From Shimia sp. R9_2 (GTDB lineage Bacteria; Pseudomonadota; Alphaproteobacteria; Rhodobacterales; Rhodobacteraceae), in assembly GCF_017743735.1 (NCBI RefSeq), contig NZ_JAGHRO010000001.1, positions 310,001-374,000 of the forward strand: a stretch of DNA of 64,000 nucleotides, read 5' to 3'. Within the stretch, counting starts at the first letter, position 1; each line of letters begins with the position of its first letter. Shown in pieces: positions 23,770-45,469 of the stretch. The notes below the pieces were generated by a model. The model saw only the letters and a list, made by a program, of their open reading frames with translations, was not told the DNA's origin and did no database searches. Position numbers and translations under genes: made by a program.

Positions 23770-24599
23770 CCCAAAACCACCTGCCGTGTGGCTTCATCCA
23801 CAACAGGGCGGCGGCCAAACCAACGCTCAAAACCCGGCACCGCCTGATGCAGCAACATACCAAGGCCATCAACGGTCACACATCCGCGCTCTTGAGCCGT
23901 CTTCAGGAAATTTGTGATCAGAGGATTATAAACCAGATCCGTGACAACAGTTTCGCTGCGCAATCCGTCCATGGGAATCCGAAGCTCCGATTTTCCAGCC
24001 ATGCCGAGAGAGGTTGTGTTTACGAGCGTGGCGGCTTCTTCGAGAATGTTGCCAGCCTGGACCCATTCGACGACTTTGACACGCGCGCCAAAATCCTCCC
24101 GCAACCGATCTGCACGCACGCGGGTCCGGTTGGTCAGTAAAATTTCTGGTACACCTGCGTCTAGAAGTGAGGCAACCACAGCACGCGCGGCGCCACCTGC
24201 ACCCAAGACCACCGCTGGACCGGCCTCCGCCTGCCACTCAGGCGCGCCATGACGCAAATTTTCAATAAAGCCGTATCCATCGGTGTTGTCGCCAACGATG
24301 CTGCCATCTGGACGGAAAATCAACGTGTTCACTGCGCCAATCAAGGTCGCCCGATCTGTGATCTGGTCAACAAACTGAACGACACGCTCTTTATGAGGGA
24401 TGGTGACGTTACATCCCACAAACCCCATTTGCGGCATCGCCTTAAGGACGGCCTCCAGATGCTCTGCGTCCACTTCAAGCGGCACATAATGTCCTGTGAT
24501 GCCGTAGGTCTTCAGCCAATGACCATGCAGAAGTGGGGATTTGGAATGGGCGATGGGATTGCCAATCACTCCGGCAAGGGGGATCGAGGGCAAAGTCAT
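23766..24599 (-). CDS. aroE: Shikimate dehydrogenase
   Basis: A 277-residue protein. The substrate site is Asn-Pro-Ile-Ala-His-Ser-Lys-Ser-Pro near 14-22, the catalytic Lys is in Val-Thr-Ile-Pro-His-Lys, and the NADP site Gly-Ala-Gly-Gly-Ala-Ala-Arg-Ala is near 132. It reduces 3-dehydroshikimate to shikimate in aromatic amino acid synthesis. It overlaps maf and coaE by four bases each. Confidence 0.95.
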   Translation of the reverse strand: MTLPSIPLAGVIGNPIAHSKSPLLHGHWLKTYGITGHYVPLEVDAEHLEAVLKAMPQMGFVGCNVTIPHKERVVQFVDQITDRATLIGAVNTLIFRPDGSIVGDNTDGYGFIENLRHGAPEWQAEAGPAVVLGAGGAARAVVASLLDAGVPEILLTNRTRVRADRLREDFGARVKVVEWVQAGNILEEAATLVNTTSLGMAGKSELRIPMDGLRSETVVTDLVYNPLITNFLKTAQERGCVTVDGLGMLLHQAVPGFERWFGRRPVVDEATRQVVLG

Positions 24600-25195
24600 T
24601 GTGGCAGTTCTCCCCGCAAGGTAAGATATGAGAGTATTTCAACAAGTGGCATTCCAAGGACTGTAAAGTAGTCTCCGTCTACTTTTTCAAAAAGCCGGAC
24701 GCCTTCTTCCTCGAGTTTATACCCGCCGACCGAATGGCGTATGCTCTCAAAGTTGCGGGCCAGATAGTCGTCAAGAAACGCATCGCTAAAGTTTCTCATG
24801 AACAGGCGTACCACACCGACAAACCGCCATAGTGGCTCGCCATTCTGATAGATCACCGCGGCAGACAAGAGCATATGGCGATTTCCGCGTAGCATCAGGA
24901 GCTGATTGCGCGCGTCATCGATGCTCGCGGGTTTGGAAAAGATCGTGCCCTGAAAATCAAGTACCTGATCACAGCCAAGCACCATGGCCTCCGGCCGCTT
25001 CAGGCTCACCTTACGCGCTTTGGCCTCCGCGAGCGCATCCGCTACATCTCTTGGTGGCGCGCCTTCCGCCTGCAAAGATCGGCGGATCATTTCTTCATCA
25101 ACACGTGGCTTAACGACTTCGTAACCAAGATTGGCTTTATATAGGAGCTGAGCCCGTATCTCGGAACCCGAAGCAAGGATCAGGGGTGCGGCCAT
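24596..25195 (-). CDS. maf: Maf-family nucleotide pyrophosphatase
   Basis: A 199-residue protein. It begins Met-Ala-Ala-Pro-Leu-Ile-Leu-Ala-Ser-Gly-Ser-Glu-Ile-Arg, the usual Maf N-terminus, and has the later Gly-Cys-Asp-Gln-Val and Gly-Gly-Tyr-Lys-Leu-Glu-Glu-Glu-Gly elements. Maf proteins hydrolyse non-canonical nucleoside triphosphates. The frame is open 60 codons further upstream to 25375, but that stretch is origin sequence and lacks family similarity. The ATG overlaps a perfect DnaA box (25195-25203). It is the first gene left of the origin. Confidence 0.93.
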   Translation of the reverse strand: MAAPLILASGSEIRAQLLYKANLGYEVVKPRVDEEMIRRSLQAEGAPPRDVADALAEAKARKVSLKRPEAMVLGCDQVLDFQGTIFSKPASIDDARNQLLMLRGNRHMLLSAAVIYQNGEPLWRFVGVVRLFMRNFSDAFLDDYLARNFESIRHSVGGYKLEEEGVRLFEKVDGDYFTVLGMPLVEILSYLTLRGELPQ

Positions 25196-25203
25196 GTGGA
25201 TAA
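25195..25203 (-). promoter_or_regulatory. DnaA box, perfect match
   Basis: TGTGGATAA is the reverse complement of the consensus TTATCCACA. Its first base is the A of the maf start codon, so DnaA bound here would cover the maf translation start. Confidence 0.75.
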
Positions 25204-25377
25204 GTCCGTGGAGAAGGAAAGGAACATCTGGTGAGTCCTTTCTGGAAATTTCTGTGAGATTTTGCAAGCTGGGGAAACTCACCCGGACTTCACGGAAATC
25301 CCCCGTTTTTCTGCACCGTGGATGAGGAAAACTTTGCTTGGGGGAGGAATCAGCCACATACCGGTTCATCCTCACGT

Positions 25378-25386
25378 TTATCCACA
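25378..25386 (+). promoter_or_regulatory. DnaA box, perfect match
   Basis: TTATCCACA matches the consensus exactly. The next box begins ten bases later on the same strand, one helical turn away. Confidence 0.8.
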
Positions 25387-25387
25387 G

Positions 25388-25396
25388 TCATCCACA
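25388..25396 (+). promoter_or_regulatory. DnaA box, one mismatch
   Basis: TCATCCACA differs from the consensus at position 2 and lies in helical phase with the perfect box at 25378, as expected for cooperative DnaA binding. Confidence 0.6.
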
Positions 25397-25510
25397 CATC
25401 ATCTTATTCTCAAGTCTTTGACTCTCATAGACTCTTTTCACTTTAGCCCCAGATGTGGGAGTCTTCTTAGATATTCTATCCTCCTGTGTAAAACTGCGGG
25501 GGAACACCCA

Positions 25511-25519
25511 TAATCCACA
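25511..25519 (+). promoter_or_regulatory. DnaA box, one mismatch, next to the A/T run
   Basis: TAATCCACA differs from the consensus at position 2. It is the box closest to the A/T-rich stretch, 35 bases away. Confidence 0.55.
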
Positions 25520-25550
25520 GGTTTGGAGCTCCCAACAAAATCATCATCCT

Positions 25551-25575
25551 TTTCTAAATATATTTATTTATTTAG
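25551..25575. other. A/T-rich candidate DNA unwinding element
   Basis: Twenty consecutive A/T bases (25555-25574) with repeated TATTTATTTA-type units, unlike the GC-richer surroundings. It sits at the hemJ edge of the origin next to the last DnaA box. Confidence 0.6.
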
Positions 25576-25608
25576 AGAGGGTGAGCTCGTACCAAGGATC
25601 GAAACCGC

Positions 25609-26058
25609 ATGGGTTACTTTCTCGTAGACATTTACCCCTATGTCCTCGCTTTCCATATCATGGCCGTGATCAGCTGGATGGCAGGGCTGTTCTATCTCCC
25701 ACGATTATTTGTCTATCATGCGGAACGTGCAGAGCAGGGGGATCAACTCGACGAAACGCTTAAGATCATGGAATACAAGCTTCAGCGCTATATCATGGCA
25801 CCAGCCAGCGTTGCTACTTGGCTTGCAGGTCTCACGCTGGTGTTTACGCCGGGTATAGTCGATTGGTCGTCAGTTTGGCCTTACACCAAAGCGTTTGCTG
25901 TGATTGCCATGACAGGGTTTGATCACTGGCTCATGCAAATGCGAAAGAAATTTGATCGCAACGAGAACACGCTTACTGGGCGCCAGTTTCGAATGATGAA
26001 CGAAGTACCGACAATTTTGATGGTGATCATCGTTGTCTCGGTTGTAGTGAAATTCTGA
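25609..26058 (+). CDS. hemJ: Protoporphyrinogen oxidase HemJ
   Basis: A 149-residue protein with four membrane segments. Phe-His-Ile-Met-Ala-Val-Ile-Ser-Trp-Met-Ala is near 15-25, and the C-terminus has Asn-Glu-Val-Pro-Thr-Ile-Leu-Met; these are HemJ family patterns. HemJ oxidises protoporphyrinogen IX to protoporphyrin IX in bacteria that lack HemG and HemY. AAGGA at 25593-25597 precedes the ATG. It is the first gene to the right of the origin. The hemE gene often found here in other alphaproteobacteria is absent. Confidence 0.92.
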   Translation: MGYFLVDIYPYVLAFHIMAVISWMAGLFYLPRLFVYHAERAEQGDQLDETLKIMEYKLQRYIMAPASVATWLAGLTLVFTPGIVDWSSVWPYTKAFAVIAMTGFDHWLMQMRKKFDRNENTLTGRQFRMMNEVPTILMVIIVVSVVVKF

Positions 26059-28774: not shown

Positions 28775-28790
28775 TGTTTCACGTGAAACA
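28775..28790. promoter_or_regulatory. parS: parS centromere site 1 (perfect)
   Basis: TGTTTCACGTGAAACA is the canonical 16-base parS palindrome bound by ParB. It lies about 3.4 kb from the origin and spans the mnmG translation start, between the ribosome binding site and the GTG at 28783. Confidence 0.95.
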
Positions 28791-30645: not shown

Positions 30646-31283
30646 TGAACTGTCCAGAGAACATTCGTGACGCACTGGATGTTTCACGTGAAACATTTCA
30701 GCGTCTTCAGGTCTTGGCGGACTTGCTGGTTAAGTGGAACCCGAGAATTAACCTCGTTTCCAAGTCCACACTCGACGCCTTATGGGAACGTCATATCCTG
30801 GATTCGGTTCAGGTGATGCGTAGCGCACCTCATAATGTGGCGCATTGGGTGGACATTGGCAGCGGAGGTGGTTTCCCTGGATTGGTCATTGCGTTGATGT
30901 CGGAAGAGCCAACTGCGCCGCAGAAGGTAACGTTGATTGAGAGTGATCAACGTAAGTGTGCCTTTTTGCGGACGGTTTTGCGAGAGACCGGCGTAAAGGC
31001 AGCTGTTTTGACAGAACGTATCGAGAAAGTGTCTCCGCAGAATGCCGACGTTCTTTCTGCACGCGCGCTGGCGGATCTTCCGCTGTTGTTTGACTTTACA
31101 GAGCGACATTTGCGGGCAGATGGCGTTGGGCTGTTTCCAAAGGGAGCAAGCTGGCAAAAAGAGCTTAAATCCGTACAGGAATCGTGGTCATTTGATTGCG
31201 AAGTGGTAAAGAGTATTACGGACTCTCAAGCAGTCATCCTGAAGGTCGGAGAACTGAAACGTGACGGATCCAACGCGCCCTAA
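30645..31283 (+). CDS. rsmG: 16S rRNA G527 N7-methyltransferase RsmG (GidB)
   Basis: A 212-residue SAM-dependent methyltransferase. [11 protein letters not shown] near 68-78 is the SAM-binding GidB signature. Codons 12-17 are made from parS site 2. The start overlaps mnmG and the end overlaps parA by 23 bases, so the whole mnmE-parB group is probably one transcript. Confidence 0.96.
30680..30695. promoter_or_regulatory. parS: parS centromere site 2 (perfect)
   Basis: A second exact TGTTTCACGTGAAACA, inside the rsmG reading frame, 1905 bases after site 1. The coding sequence tolerates it as Val-Ser-Arg-Glu-Thr. Confidence 0.95.
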
Positions 31284-41373: not shown

Positions 41374-42036
41374 TTAGTGGCCTACAAATGGAGCAGCGCT
41401 TCCCCAAAGTTCTTTTACGCGCGCATCCCGGCCGCATGCTTTGCGATAGCGCTTATAGGCTTCGCTCTGCTTTTTCGGCCCAAAGCGGGTCAATACAATC
41501 TTGCTGCCTTTGTAGTAGTCCTGATGATAGGCTTCTGCCTCATAGAAGGTTCCGGCCTGCAAAATTGGCGTCACAATTGTCCGCCCCAACTGAGCCTGGG
41601 CTTTCACTTTTGCGGCTTGAGCCTTGCTTTGTTCGCTTTGATTGGCGACAAAAATCGCGGTGCGGTAGCTGTCGCCTCGGTCGCAAAATTGACCGCCGGC
41701 ATCTGTGGGATCAACAGAGCGGAAGAACAGATCTAGCAGCGTTTCACGTGAAACTTTGGAGGGATCGAAAGTAATCTCTACCGCCTCGTAGTGACCTGTC
41801 CCACCTTTGGTGACCTGTTTATAGCTTGGGTTGGCTGTGTTGCCGCCGATAAAGCCGGACCGCGCTTCCTGAACACCTTTGACACTTTCAAAGTCGCTCT
41901 CCACGCACCAGAAGCATCCACCGGCGACGATCAGTTTTTCCGTGTTCATGGCGTAGGCACGCTCGCTGTGAGCAAATGTTCCCAGAACAATCAGAGCGGA
42001 TAGGGCTGCGGTTTTCAGGTTCTGCAGTTTTTTCAT
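41374..42036 (-). CDS. msrA: Exported peptide methionine sulfoxide reductase MsrA
   Basis: A 220-residue protein with a signal peptide at about 1-29 (Lys-Lys, a hydrophobic core, then Ala-Tyr-Ala), so it probably acts in the periplasm. The catalytic motif Gly-Gly-Cys41-Phe-Trp-Cys and the Tyr-Glu-Ala-Glu-Ala-Tyr-His-Gln-Asp-Tyr block define MsrA. It reduces methionine-S-sulfoxide in oxidised proteins. AAGGAG precedes the ATG at 42036. The frame is open to 42138 without similarity. The coding sequence contains a near-perfect parS site. Confidence 0.94.
   Translation of the reverse strand: MKKLQNLKTAALSALIVLGTFAHSERAYAMNTEKLIVAGGCFWCVESDFESVKGVQEARSGFIGGNTANPSYKQVTKGGTGHYEAVEITFDPSKVSRETLLDLFFRSVDPTDAGGQFCDRGDSYRTAIFVANQSEQSKAQAAKVKAQAQLGRTIVTPILQAGTFYEAEAYHQDYYKGSKIVLTRFGPKKQSEAYKRYRKACGRDARVKELWGSAAPFVGH
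41740..41755. promoter_or_regulatory. parS: parS-like site 3, inside msrA
   Basis: The 14-base palindrome core GTTTCACGTGAAAC (41741-41754) is intact; the outer pair is C/T where sites 1 and 2 have T/A. It lies about 16 kb from the origin and is read as Val-Ser-Arg-Glu-Thr within MsrA. Confidence 0.8.
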
Positions 42037-44962: not shown

Positions 44963-45208
44963 GTATCCTCCAAAAATAAGTCTCTCGCGAGCATTTAATC
45001 GCAGCCACATTGCGTTGCTGCAAGAGTTACGTTGGATTGGTTACCTCGACGTTAAGTGGCAAAGCTTCAGAGAAATCTGTCGTGCTCTTCTGGATTTCAG
45101 CGTTCTGTCCGAAACTATCAAGTTGTTGGCTCTTGGTGCCATGTTTTGTCTGATTGCGAAGAATAAATAGCTGATCGAACCAAAATTACACTTTTTATGG
45201 AGATCACC

Positions 45209-45391
45209 ATGCGCCCTCTGATCCTGATAGCCTGTTTAGTCACCTTCATTTCCGCTTGCTCAGACGCGGGAAGATATCCAATTACCGGATGTGACAGCAA
45301 TGCGACCTACCCTCTGACTTGTAAACCGCATGAAGAGCAGGATCCTGTACACAAAATGGACTCTACCGGCTTTACCTCTGTATTCAACTGA
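45209..45391 (+). CDS. Small predicted lipoprotein
   Basis: A 60-residue protein. A signal sequence (Arg-Pro then Leu-Ile-Leu-Ile-Ala-Cys-Leu-Val-Thr-Phe) ends in Ile-Ser-Ala-Cys, a good lipobox, so a lipid-anchored peptide of about 43 residues is predicted, with two further Cys. GGAG at 45199-45202 favours the ATG at 45209 over one at 45197. It stands alone and ends before a strong terminator. No family recognised. Confidence 0.6.
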   Translation: MRPLILIACLVTFISACSDAGRYPITGCDSNATYPLTCKPHEEQDPVHKMDSTGFTSVFN

Positions 45392-45422
45392 ACTGTCGGT
45401 TTGATAGCAAACTGCCGGAAAC

Positions 45423-45450
45423 AAAAAACCCGCCCATTGGGCGGGTTTTA
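45423..45450. terminator. Bidirectional Rho-independent terminator between the lipoprotein gene and argG
   Basis: CCCGCCC pairs with GGGCGGG around a short loop, flanked by a run of A on the left and T on the right, so it works for argG on the minus strand and the lipoprotein gene on the plus strand. Confidence 0.9.
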
Positions 45451-45469
45451 GTGTCTAAACTCTGACTGT

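Follow-up and report, generated by a model that had tools for sequence, protein, structure and literature searches.

The maf-hemJ gap of a Shimia genome as the very probable chromosomal origin of replication, with a triplet tract resembling a variant DnaA-trio

The 413-bp gap between the divergent genes maf and hemJ is very probably the chromosomal origin of replication (oriC) of this Shimia-like Roseobacter. The computed support consists of the position of the gap, the skew minimum of its contig, a cluster of DnaA boxes, nearby parS sites and a spacing conserved in relatives. These lines of evidence, including the recurrence of both gap length and boxes in relatives, agree with one another and uphold the original prediction of an origin at this place. 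New beyond that prediction is a putative module, read from the sequence, in which a DnaA box, 13 bp, a triplet tract and A/T-rich DNA follow each other, placed and oriented as in the Bacillus DnaA-trio; it identifies a 65-bp core (25511-25575) within the Roseobacter origin.

The window, meaning the whole stretch of 64,000 nucleotides that was analysed, corresponds to C11:310001-374000. The assembly totals 4.47 Mb and has 25 contigs, with contig C11 (973,634 bp) representing 22% of the genome. NCBIfam models identify dnaQ, coaE, aroE and maf on the minus strand to the left of the gap, and hemJ, rho, mnmE, mnmG, rsmG and a ParA-type ATPase on the plus strand to its right; the maf and ParA-type matches are strong, yet score under the curated cut-offs of their models. 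The left flank, maf (24596..25195, minus strand), has Maf models as its best NCBIfam matches (E 1.7e-57), and its start at 25195 was placed with the help of the 80-gap alignment described below. The right flank, hemJ (25609..26058, plus strand), matches TIGR00701 with 140.2 bits at a cut-off of 138.05; the encoded protein is 95% identical to HemJ of Shimia sp. R10_1, and the closest loci are mostly from Shimia. Both flanking genes run away from the gap, as had been predicted. The accompanying statement that the window has no other long gap is not obviously correct, as other stretches are free of open reading frames of at least 100 aa (e.g., 45011-45469, judged by the list of open reading frames rather than by annotation). 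The dnaA gene is found 291 kb from the window on the same contig.

Cumulative GC skew, which had been named as the check on the prediction, was computed over the 973,634 bases of contig C11 and has its minimum at C11:335659, or window position 25659, which is 50 bp downstream of the hemJ start; it lies nowhere else on this contig, which covers the stated 22% of the genome. A two-segment fit to the skew beats all 500 block shuffles and places its break at 423 kb, away from the minimum. In 10-kb bins around the minimum the skew is near zero, and the left arm of the contig is weakly skewed with mixed sign. In a complete genome of the same family (G115), with hemJ at 123 kb, the skew changes from positive to negative between 2.1 and 2.4 Mb, an interval that contains the antipode of hemJ at 2.22 Mb. 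The return change falls between 0.3 and 0.6 Mb, so that the origin side is not sharp relative to hemJ at ~0.12 Mb; sampling was coarse in this genome (14 stretches of 20 kb), and only the terminus-side change fits well.

DnaA boxes are likewise concentrated here. The window contains 18 boxes with at most one mismatch, compared to a mean of 8.26 in 100 shuffles, none of which reaches 18. The densest 420-bp stretch of the whole contig is this gap, with four such boxes, compared to a maximum of two elsewhere, and thus the maf-hemJ gap combines an intergenic position with a box cluster beyond chance. Two perfect parS sites, the only ones on contig C11, both fall inside the window at 3-5 kb from the gap, bearing out the claim of two parS within 6 kb. 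The first (28775..28790, plus strand) lies inside the first codons of mnmG, and the second (30680..30695, plus strand) inside rsmG. Both are within coding sequence: the former begins on base 2 of the start codon of mnmG, and the latter spans rsmG codons 12-17. A third, parS-like palindrome with two mismatches is present at 41740-41755. The same observations weigh on a different view of the gap, namely that it is a DnaA-regulated divergent maf/hemJ promoter or a DnaA-titration site, with the origin elsewhere. The divergent intergenic setting and the contact of the first box with the maf start codon would suit such a role, but the skew minimum of the contig sits at the gap, the parS pair is nearby and the gap lies in the gene block that also harbours the alphaproteobacterial origins already described (PMC1914354), which makes this explanation highly improbable. 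Similarly to the origin assigned here, Ori-Finder predictions for 101 Rhodobacteraceae (PMC6699656) assign each chromosome one origin, selected for its proximity to the skew minimum and to parAB; by contrast, neither maf nor hemE is named in the main text there (0 occurrences), and excerpts of that study give no motif anatomy.

The arrangement of maf, origin and hemJ is not special to the Shimia genome. Among 80 relatives fetched with HemJ, 79 carry maf and hemJ divergently at a distance of 374-426 bp. The remaining one, a Paracoccus MAG (L058), has no maf match and was dropped from the gap alignment, which thus comprises 79 loci and the Shimia window (80 gaps). In this MAG, aroE is the nearest left neighbour of the gap preceding hemJ among the genes searched. 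Two Primorskyibacter loci (L024 and L049) show no aroE match between coaE and maf, and their dnaQ and coaE are nearer to the origin than in most loci.

In Caulobacter and Rickettsia, hemE and COG1806 are the border genes of the origin (PMC1914354). The Shimia gap shares with Caulobacter Cori and the Rickettsia prowazekii origin (PMC1914354) the gene neighbourhood that surrounds hemE-hemJ in the class, a length of ~400 bp, several DnaA boxes and an A/T-rich element, but differs from them in having neither a hemE nor a COG1806 (PF03618) border and no CtrA or IHF consensus. In Shimia, hemE is located on contig C21 and the gap is bounded directly by maf and hemJ, as predicted; PF03618 has no match anywhere in the genome. 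The absence of hemE is therefore real for this genome, whereas it is no peculiarity, being the common state among the sampled relatives. This was assessed by eye on gene tables from two draws of genomes. In a draw of 143 genomes from the class, 115 combine a HemJ match with a strong HemE match, and in 101 of these hemE lies on the same strand as hemJ and within 3 kb of it, the rule applied for the class; in the three members of Shimia's family included in this draw, hemE is not near hemJ. In a draw of 80 genomes from the family, hemE is directly beside hemJ in only five of the 60 genomes with a strong HemJ match (E ≤1e-38). Two of these five (L178 and L186) have a box and a triplet tract upstream of hemE, together with A/T-rich DNA in L178. 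In the best 30 HemJ loci of the family draw, maf and hemJ are separated by 300-520 bp in 25 and by 1.2-1.3 kb in three, and hemE is kept in two. The most economical interpretation is that most of the sampled family lost hemE from the origin side and the origin stayed, a loss that brought hemJ next to the origin. In the three loci with the wider spacing (L176, L185 and L191) hemE is elsewhere, indicating that something else lies between maf and hemJ. Furthermore, only a weak HemJ match (E >1e-25) is present in 18 of the 78 family genomes that have one at all, and hence the origin of those lineages may lack hemJ.

The anatomy of the gap agrees with the predicted two perfect and two one-mismatch DnaA boxes, which are located at 25195 (minus strand), 25378, 25388 and 25511. 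The first is a perfect TTATCCACA (25195..25203, minus strand) that overlaps the maf start codon by one base and occupies a slot with the strongly conserved consensus CATGTGGA.AA in the 80-gap alignment. The second perfect TTATCCACA (25378..25386, plus strand), whose slot is also conserved, is followed at one helical turn (10 bp) by the one-mismatch box TCATCCACA (25388..25396, plus strand), the box pair that had been foreseen; the latter has no conserved alignment block. The one-mismatch box TAATCCACA (25511..25519, plus strand) is strongly conserved and adjoins the predicted unwinding region. Two weaker candidates lie between these boxes. A weak box-like site, AGGAAAACT (25325..25333, minus strand), coincides with a conserved block of consensus AGGATAACT and would have some affinity for DnaA, and a weak box, TTTTACACA (25485..25493, minus strand), fits a relaxed pattern and falls on a slot with the box-like reverse consensus TG.GGA.AA. 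By itself, the relaxed pattern shows no enrichment across the window, with 6 matches compared to 3.92 expected.

Across the 80 gaps, boxes with at most one mismatch occur at a mean of 3.30 per gap, compared to 0.111 in mononucleotide shuffles; at least one perfect TTATCCACA is found in 36 of the gaps and none in the other 44. The alignment resolves into islands in the order of the box at the maf start codon, AGGATAACT, TTATCC.CA, TG.GGA.AA, TAATCCAC and finally CCCTAC-AAAA.CATCATCC-TTT ahead of A/T-rich DNA, the last two being among the best conserved. A DNA search of three relatives with window positions 25150-25620 matched two, with the best matches covering 25511-25581 (81%) and 25510-25574 (76%). 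Full-consensus CtrA (TTAA-N7-TTAA) and IHF sites are absent from the Shimia gap; across the 80 gaps a CtrA site is present in three and the IHF consensus in 13. Five GANTC (CcrM-type) sites fall within 25195-25608 including 12 flanking bases on each side. As the mean over the 80 gaps is only 2.25 compared to 1.60 in shuffles, these sites are not used as an argument.

One of the best-conserved parts of the gap is organised around the TAATCCACA box. In the order TAATCCACA, 13 bp, triplet tract and A/T-rich DNA, the module spans 25511-25575, and its box-plus-tract pattern occurs only once in the Shimia genome. The tract reads CAA CAA AAT CAT CAT CC (25533..25549, plus strand) and is proposed to be a divergent DnaA-trio, in which case the bound strand would be the minus strand. 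It is followed by an A/T-rich element (25550..25575, plus strand), the probable site of unwinding, which includes the predicted 20-base A/T run at 25555-25574. The tract begins 13 bp after the box in the window, and at 13 or 14 bp in 69 of the 80 gaps. Counting from the start of the tract, C is found at index 0 in 72 gaps, at 3 in 73, at 9 in 80, at 12 in 80 and at 15 in 70; these counts are somewhat favoured, because the place of the tract in each gap was chosen by a score that rewards phased C and is blind to A versus T. The 80-gap alignment, which was made without this score, has the same C columns. Seen from the box outwards, in the 3' to 5' direction of the complementary strand, the tract thus becomes G-N-N repeated, with G at every third base. 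In the family draw, the tract threshold was reached within 150 bp of hemJ in 20 of the best 30 loci; of the ten loci that did not reach it, two carry an intervening hemE.

In B. subtilis the DnaA-trio has the sequence 3'-GAT-5', whose central A is essential (PMC8287927, PMC10721633), and thymine at the trio centre impairs opening (PMC10721633). A survey that looked for three or more 3'-NAN-5' no further than 16 bp from a box identified such elements in 1755 of 2070 origins, and the same study allows for deviant trios that lack the central adenine (PMC8287927). Its survey tree marks five classes of Proteobacteria, and so alphaproteobacterial predictions may stand in its supplement; opening was tested biochemically there with DnaA of six other species, none of them alphaproteobacterial (PMC8287927). 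Compared to this basal unwinding system, the Shimia module has the same order and orientation of box, spacer, triplet repeat and A/T-rich DNA, the same period of three and the same G in first position (PMC8287927, PMC10721633). All elements are co-oriented, and the spacer of 13 bp in the window is within the 16 bp allowed. It differs in that the central base, in the register set by the conserved G, is mostly not A. The box-proximal triplet of the 80 gaps is mostly 3'-GAT-5' (CTA on the top strand, 57/80) and has a central A in 66, the Shimia window excepted; in the following triplets the central base is T in 62, 78, 76 and 58 of 80. In the Shimia window itself the trio strand has a central T in all five triplets (CAA CAA AAT CAT CAT).

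The absence of a central A depends on the register, because a reading shifted by one base keeps a central A in two triplets (3'-TAG-5'). Three or more consecutive 3'-NAN-5', which are absent from the conserved-G register, are partly present one base over, at a longer spacer. The origin could therefore be correctly placed and the tract be an ordinary DnaA-trio one base over (3'-TAG-TAG-GAA-5') with a long spacer and the central A retained. The two triplets of this register have their central A in 73 of the 80 family gaps, which speaks for such a trio. Nevertheless, its spacer would be ~23 bp, longer than the survey's limit of 16 bp and its 10-13 bp peak (PMC8287927), A in the preceding triplet is found in only 37 of 80 gaps, and three consecutive 3'-NAN-5' occur in just four of 38 class origins with at least four phased C. 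On balance, we regard a shifted ordinary trio as rather unlikely.

The tract upstream of hemE was analysed in 40 class origins outside the family, selected non-randomly, roughly by HemE score, from the 101 genomes with hemE near hemJ; they are not independent, because several pairs share one family. A looser first scan found the tract in 32 of the 40, but also in 15.3 of 40 in local shuffles and in 10 of 40 on the minus strand, and it was replaced by a strict score because of this high background. The strict score leaves the central base unrewarded, penalises G anywhere and penalises out-of-phase C weakly. A score of at least 10 was reached in 24 of the 40 origins compared to 2.33 expected in local shuffles, with none on the reverse strand and none in the upstream control region. 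At a threshold of 11 the numbers are 19 compared to 0.48 expected, at 9 they are 29 compared to 5.55 (one on the reverse strand and two in the upstream control), and at 8 they are 33 compared to 11.25 (six and two, respectively). The best windows of 38 of the 40 origins have C in at least four of six phases, four of these 38 being doubtful with scores of 2 or less. These windows were picked for phased C, and with the four doubtful ones included they contain 202 C-led triplets, whose middle base on the top strand is A in 80, T in 62, C in 54 and G in 6 (T, A, G and C on the trio strand). The commonest triplets in the class are CTA, CAA and CCA, with the first and third base fixed and the middle one variable. 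The count of four in 38 for three consecutive 3'-NAN-5' holds for any register, in a scan of the tract with the six bases before and three after it. As a comparison set outside the class, the regions upstream of dnaA in 27 loci yielded no convincing origins, three of the loci being too short.

Might the tract not be read by DnaA as a single strand? A different conserved protein could bind it, it could serve the loading of primase or helicase, or its composition could simply be a by-product of bordering the A/T-rich DNA. This would accommodate the composition CTA, CAA and CCA, which departs from the trio consensus, and the missing clear tract in some class members, and the binding of DnaA to the tract is a prediction. 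However, the tract sits between a DnaA box and the A/T-rich element, with the matching orientation and a period of three, and at a spacing of 13 or 14 bp in 69 of 80 gaps. We consider a tract not read by DnaA in this way unlikely.

We then turn to the protein. In B. subtilis DnaA, the central A is contacted by Asn187 and Glu183 and the G by Arg202 and Glu228 (PMC10721633). Alignment of Shimia DnaA with the B. subtilis structure 8btg, on which residue positions were counted throughout, places Tyr200 at Asn187, Lys215 at Arg202, Glu241 at Glu228 and Glu196 at Glu183. Shimia DnaA therefore keeps glutamate at both Glu228 and Glu183 and has lysine at Arg202, and differs in bearing tyrosine in place of Asn187, the reader of the central base (PMC8287927, PMC10721633). 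Tyr200 alone does not exclude the system from DnaA-trio membership, because no DnaA contact residue is universally conserved, although residue properties generally are (PMC10721633). In the first set of class DnaA proteins, made up of the 30 best-scoring class loci and the window's own, the Asn187 position of the 30 loci holds Y in 27, F in two and H in one. In a second set of 30 (20 from the origin genomes and 10 mostly chosen for low DnaA scores) it holds Y in 23, F in two, H in one and V, Q, N and S once each. Outside the class, a draw of 60 genomes from the phylum Pseudomonadota gave 30 loci, of which 27 remained after removal of three class members; here the position holds A in seven, Q in four, T in eight and N in eight, and Y, F or H in none. 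The G-contact positions are Lys and Glu in all 31 DnaA proteins of the first class set, Shimia's among them, and in 29 of 30 in the second set, and in the 27 non-class loci they are Lys (19) or Arg (8) with Glu in all 27.

Together, the Shimia tract and the DnaA residue look like a variant of the Bacillus opening mechanism. DnaA would load on the outer boxes first and then on the box at 25511, from where a DnaA-ATP filament may extend into the A/T-rich element on the minus strand at three bases per protomer. Within the tract (25533-25549), the filament would grip the G that recurs every three bases, and the central base of the triplets, T in all five in Shimia, would be relaxed, with Tyr200 of DnaA replacing Asn187. 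The tract would thus act like a DnaA-trio with altered base reading. For the alphaproteobacteria at large, we tentatively propose a recoded DnaA-trio, a serious possibility at present, in which the G is fixed and T, A or G may stand at the centre, because the DnaA position that recognises the central A in Bacillus is aromatic, usually Tyr, in most class members read. Under this recoded reading, the code would have shifted jointly in origin and initiator.

The grip of DnaA on single-stranded bases sets where a chromosome opens, and the published rule for it, a central adenine read by Asn187, was derived in Bacillus. If recoding holds true, a class with another tract and another contact residue shows that the code can drift, and a clear prediction follows for a DnaA swap experiment; searches that demand a central A might then miss or misplace such origins. 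The titles and abstract openings retrieved from an open-access library describe neither DnaA-trios in alphaproteobacterial origins nor a maf-hemJ origin; PMC5043019 contains both 'DnaA-trio' and 'alphaproteobacteria', and excerpts of PMC10797057 and PMC10225481 mention the boxes of Caulobacter and, in general terms, trios, but none from alphaproteobacteria.

Within the class, the covariation of DnaA residue and tract is imperfect. In ten further origins, from genomes with unusual DnaA, only three (G009, G110 and G058) reach a score of at least 8 within 160 bp of hemE. Two genomes of one family of the class (f51), G051 with H and G141 with Y at the Asn187 position, have no clear tract upstream of hemE; their DnaA proteins are low-scoring, and they possibly open their origins in a different way. 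In G048, which has an Asn-bearing DnaA, the triplets are of the CAA type all the same.
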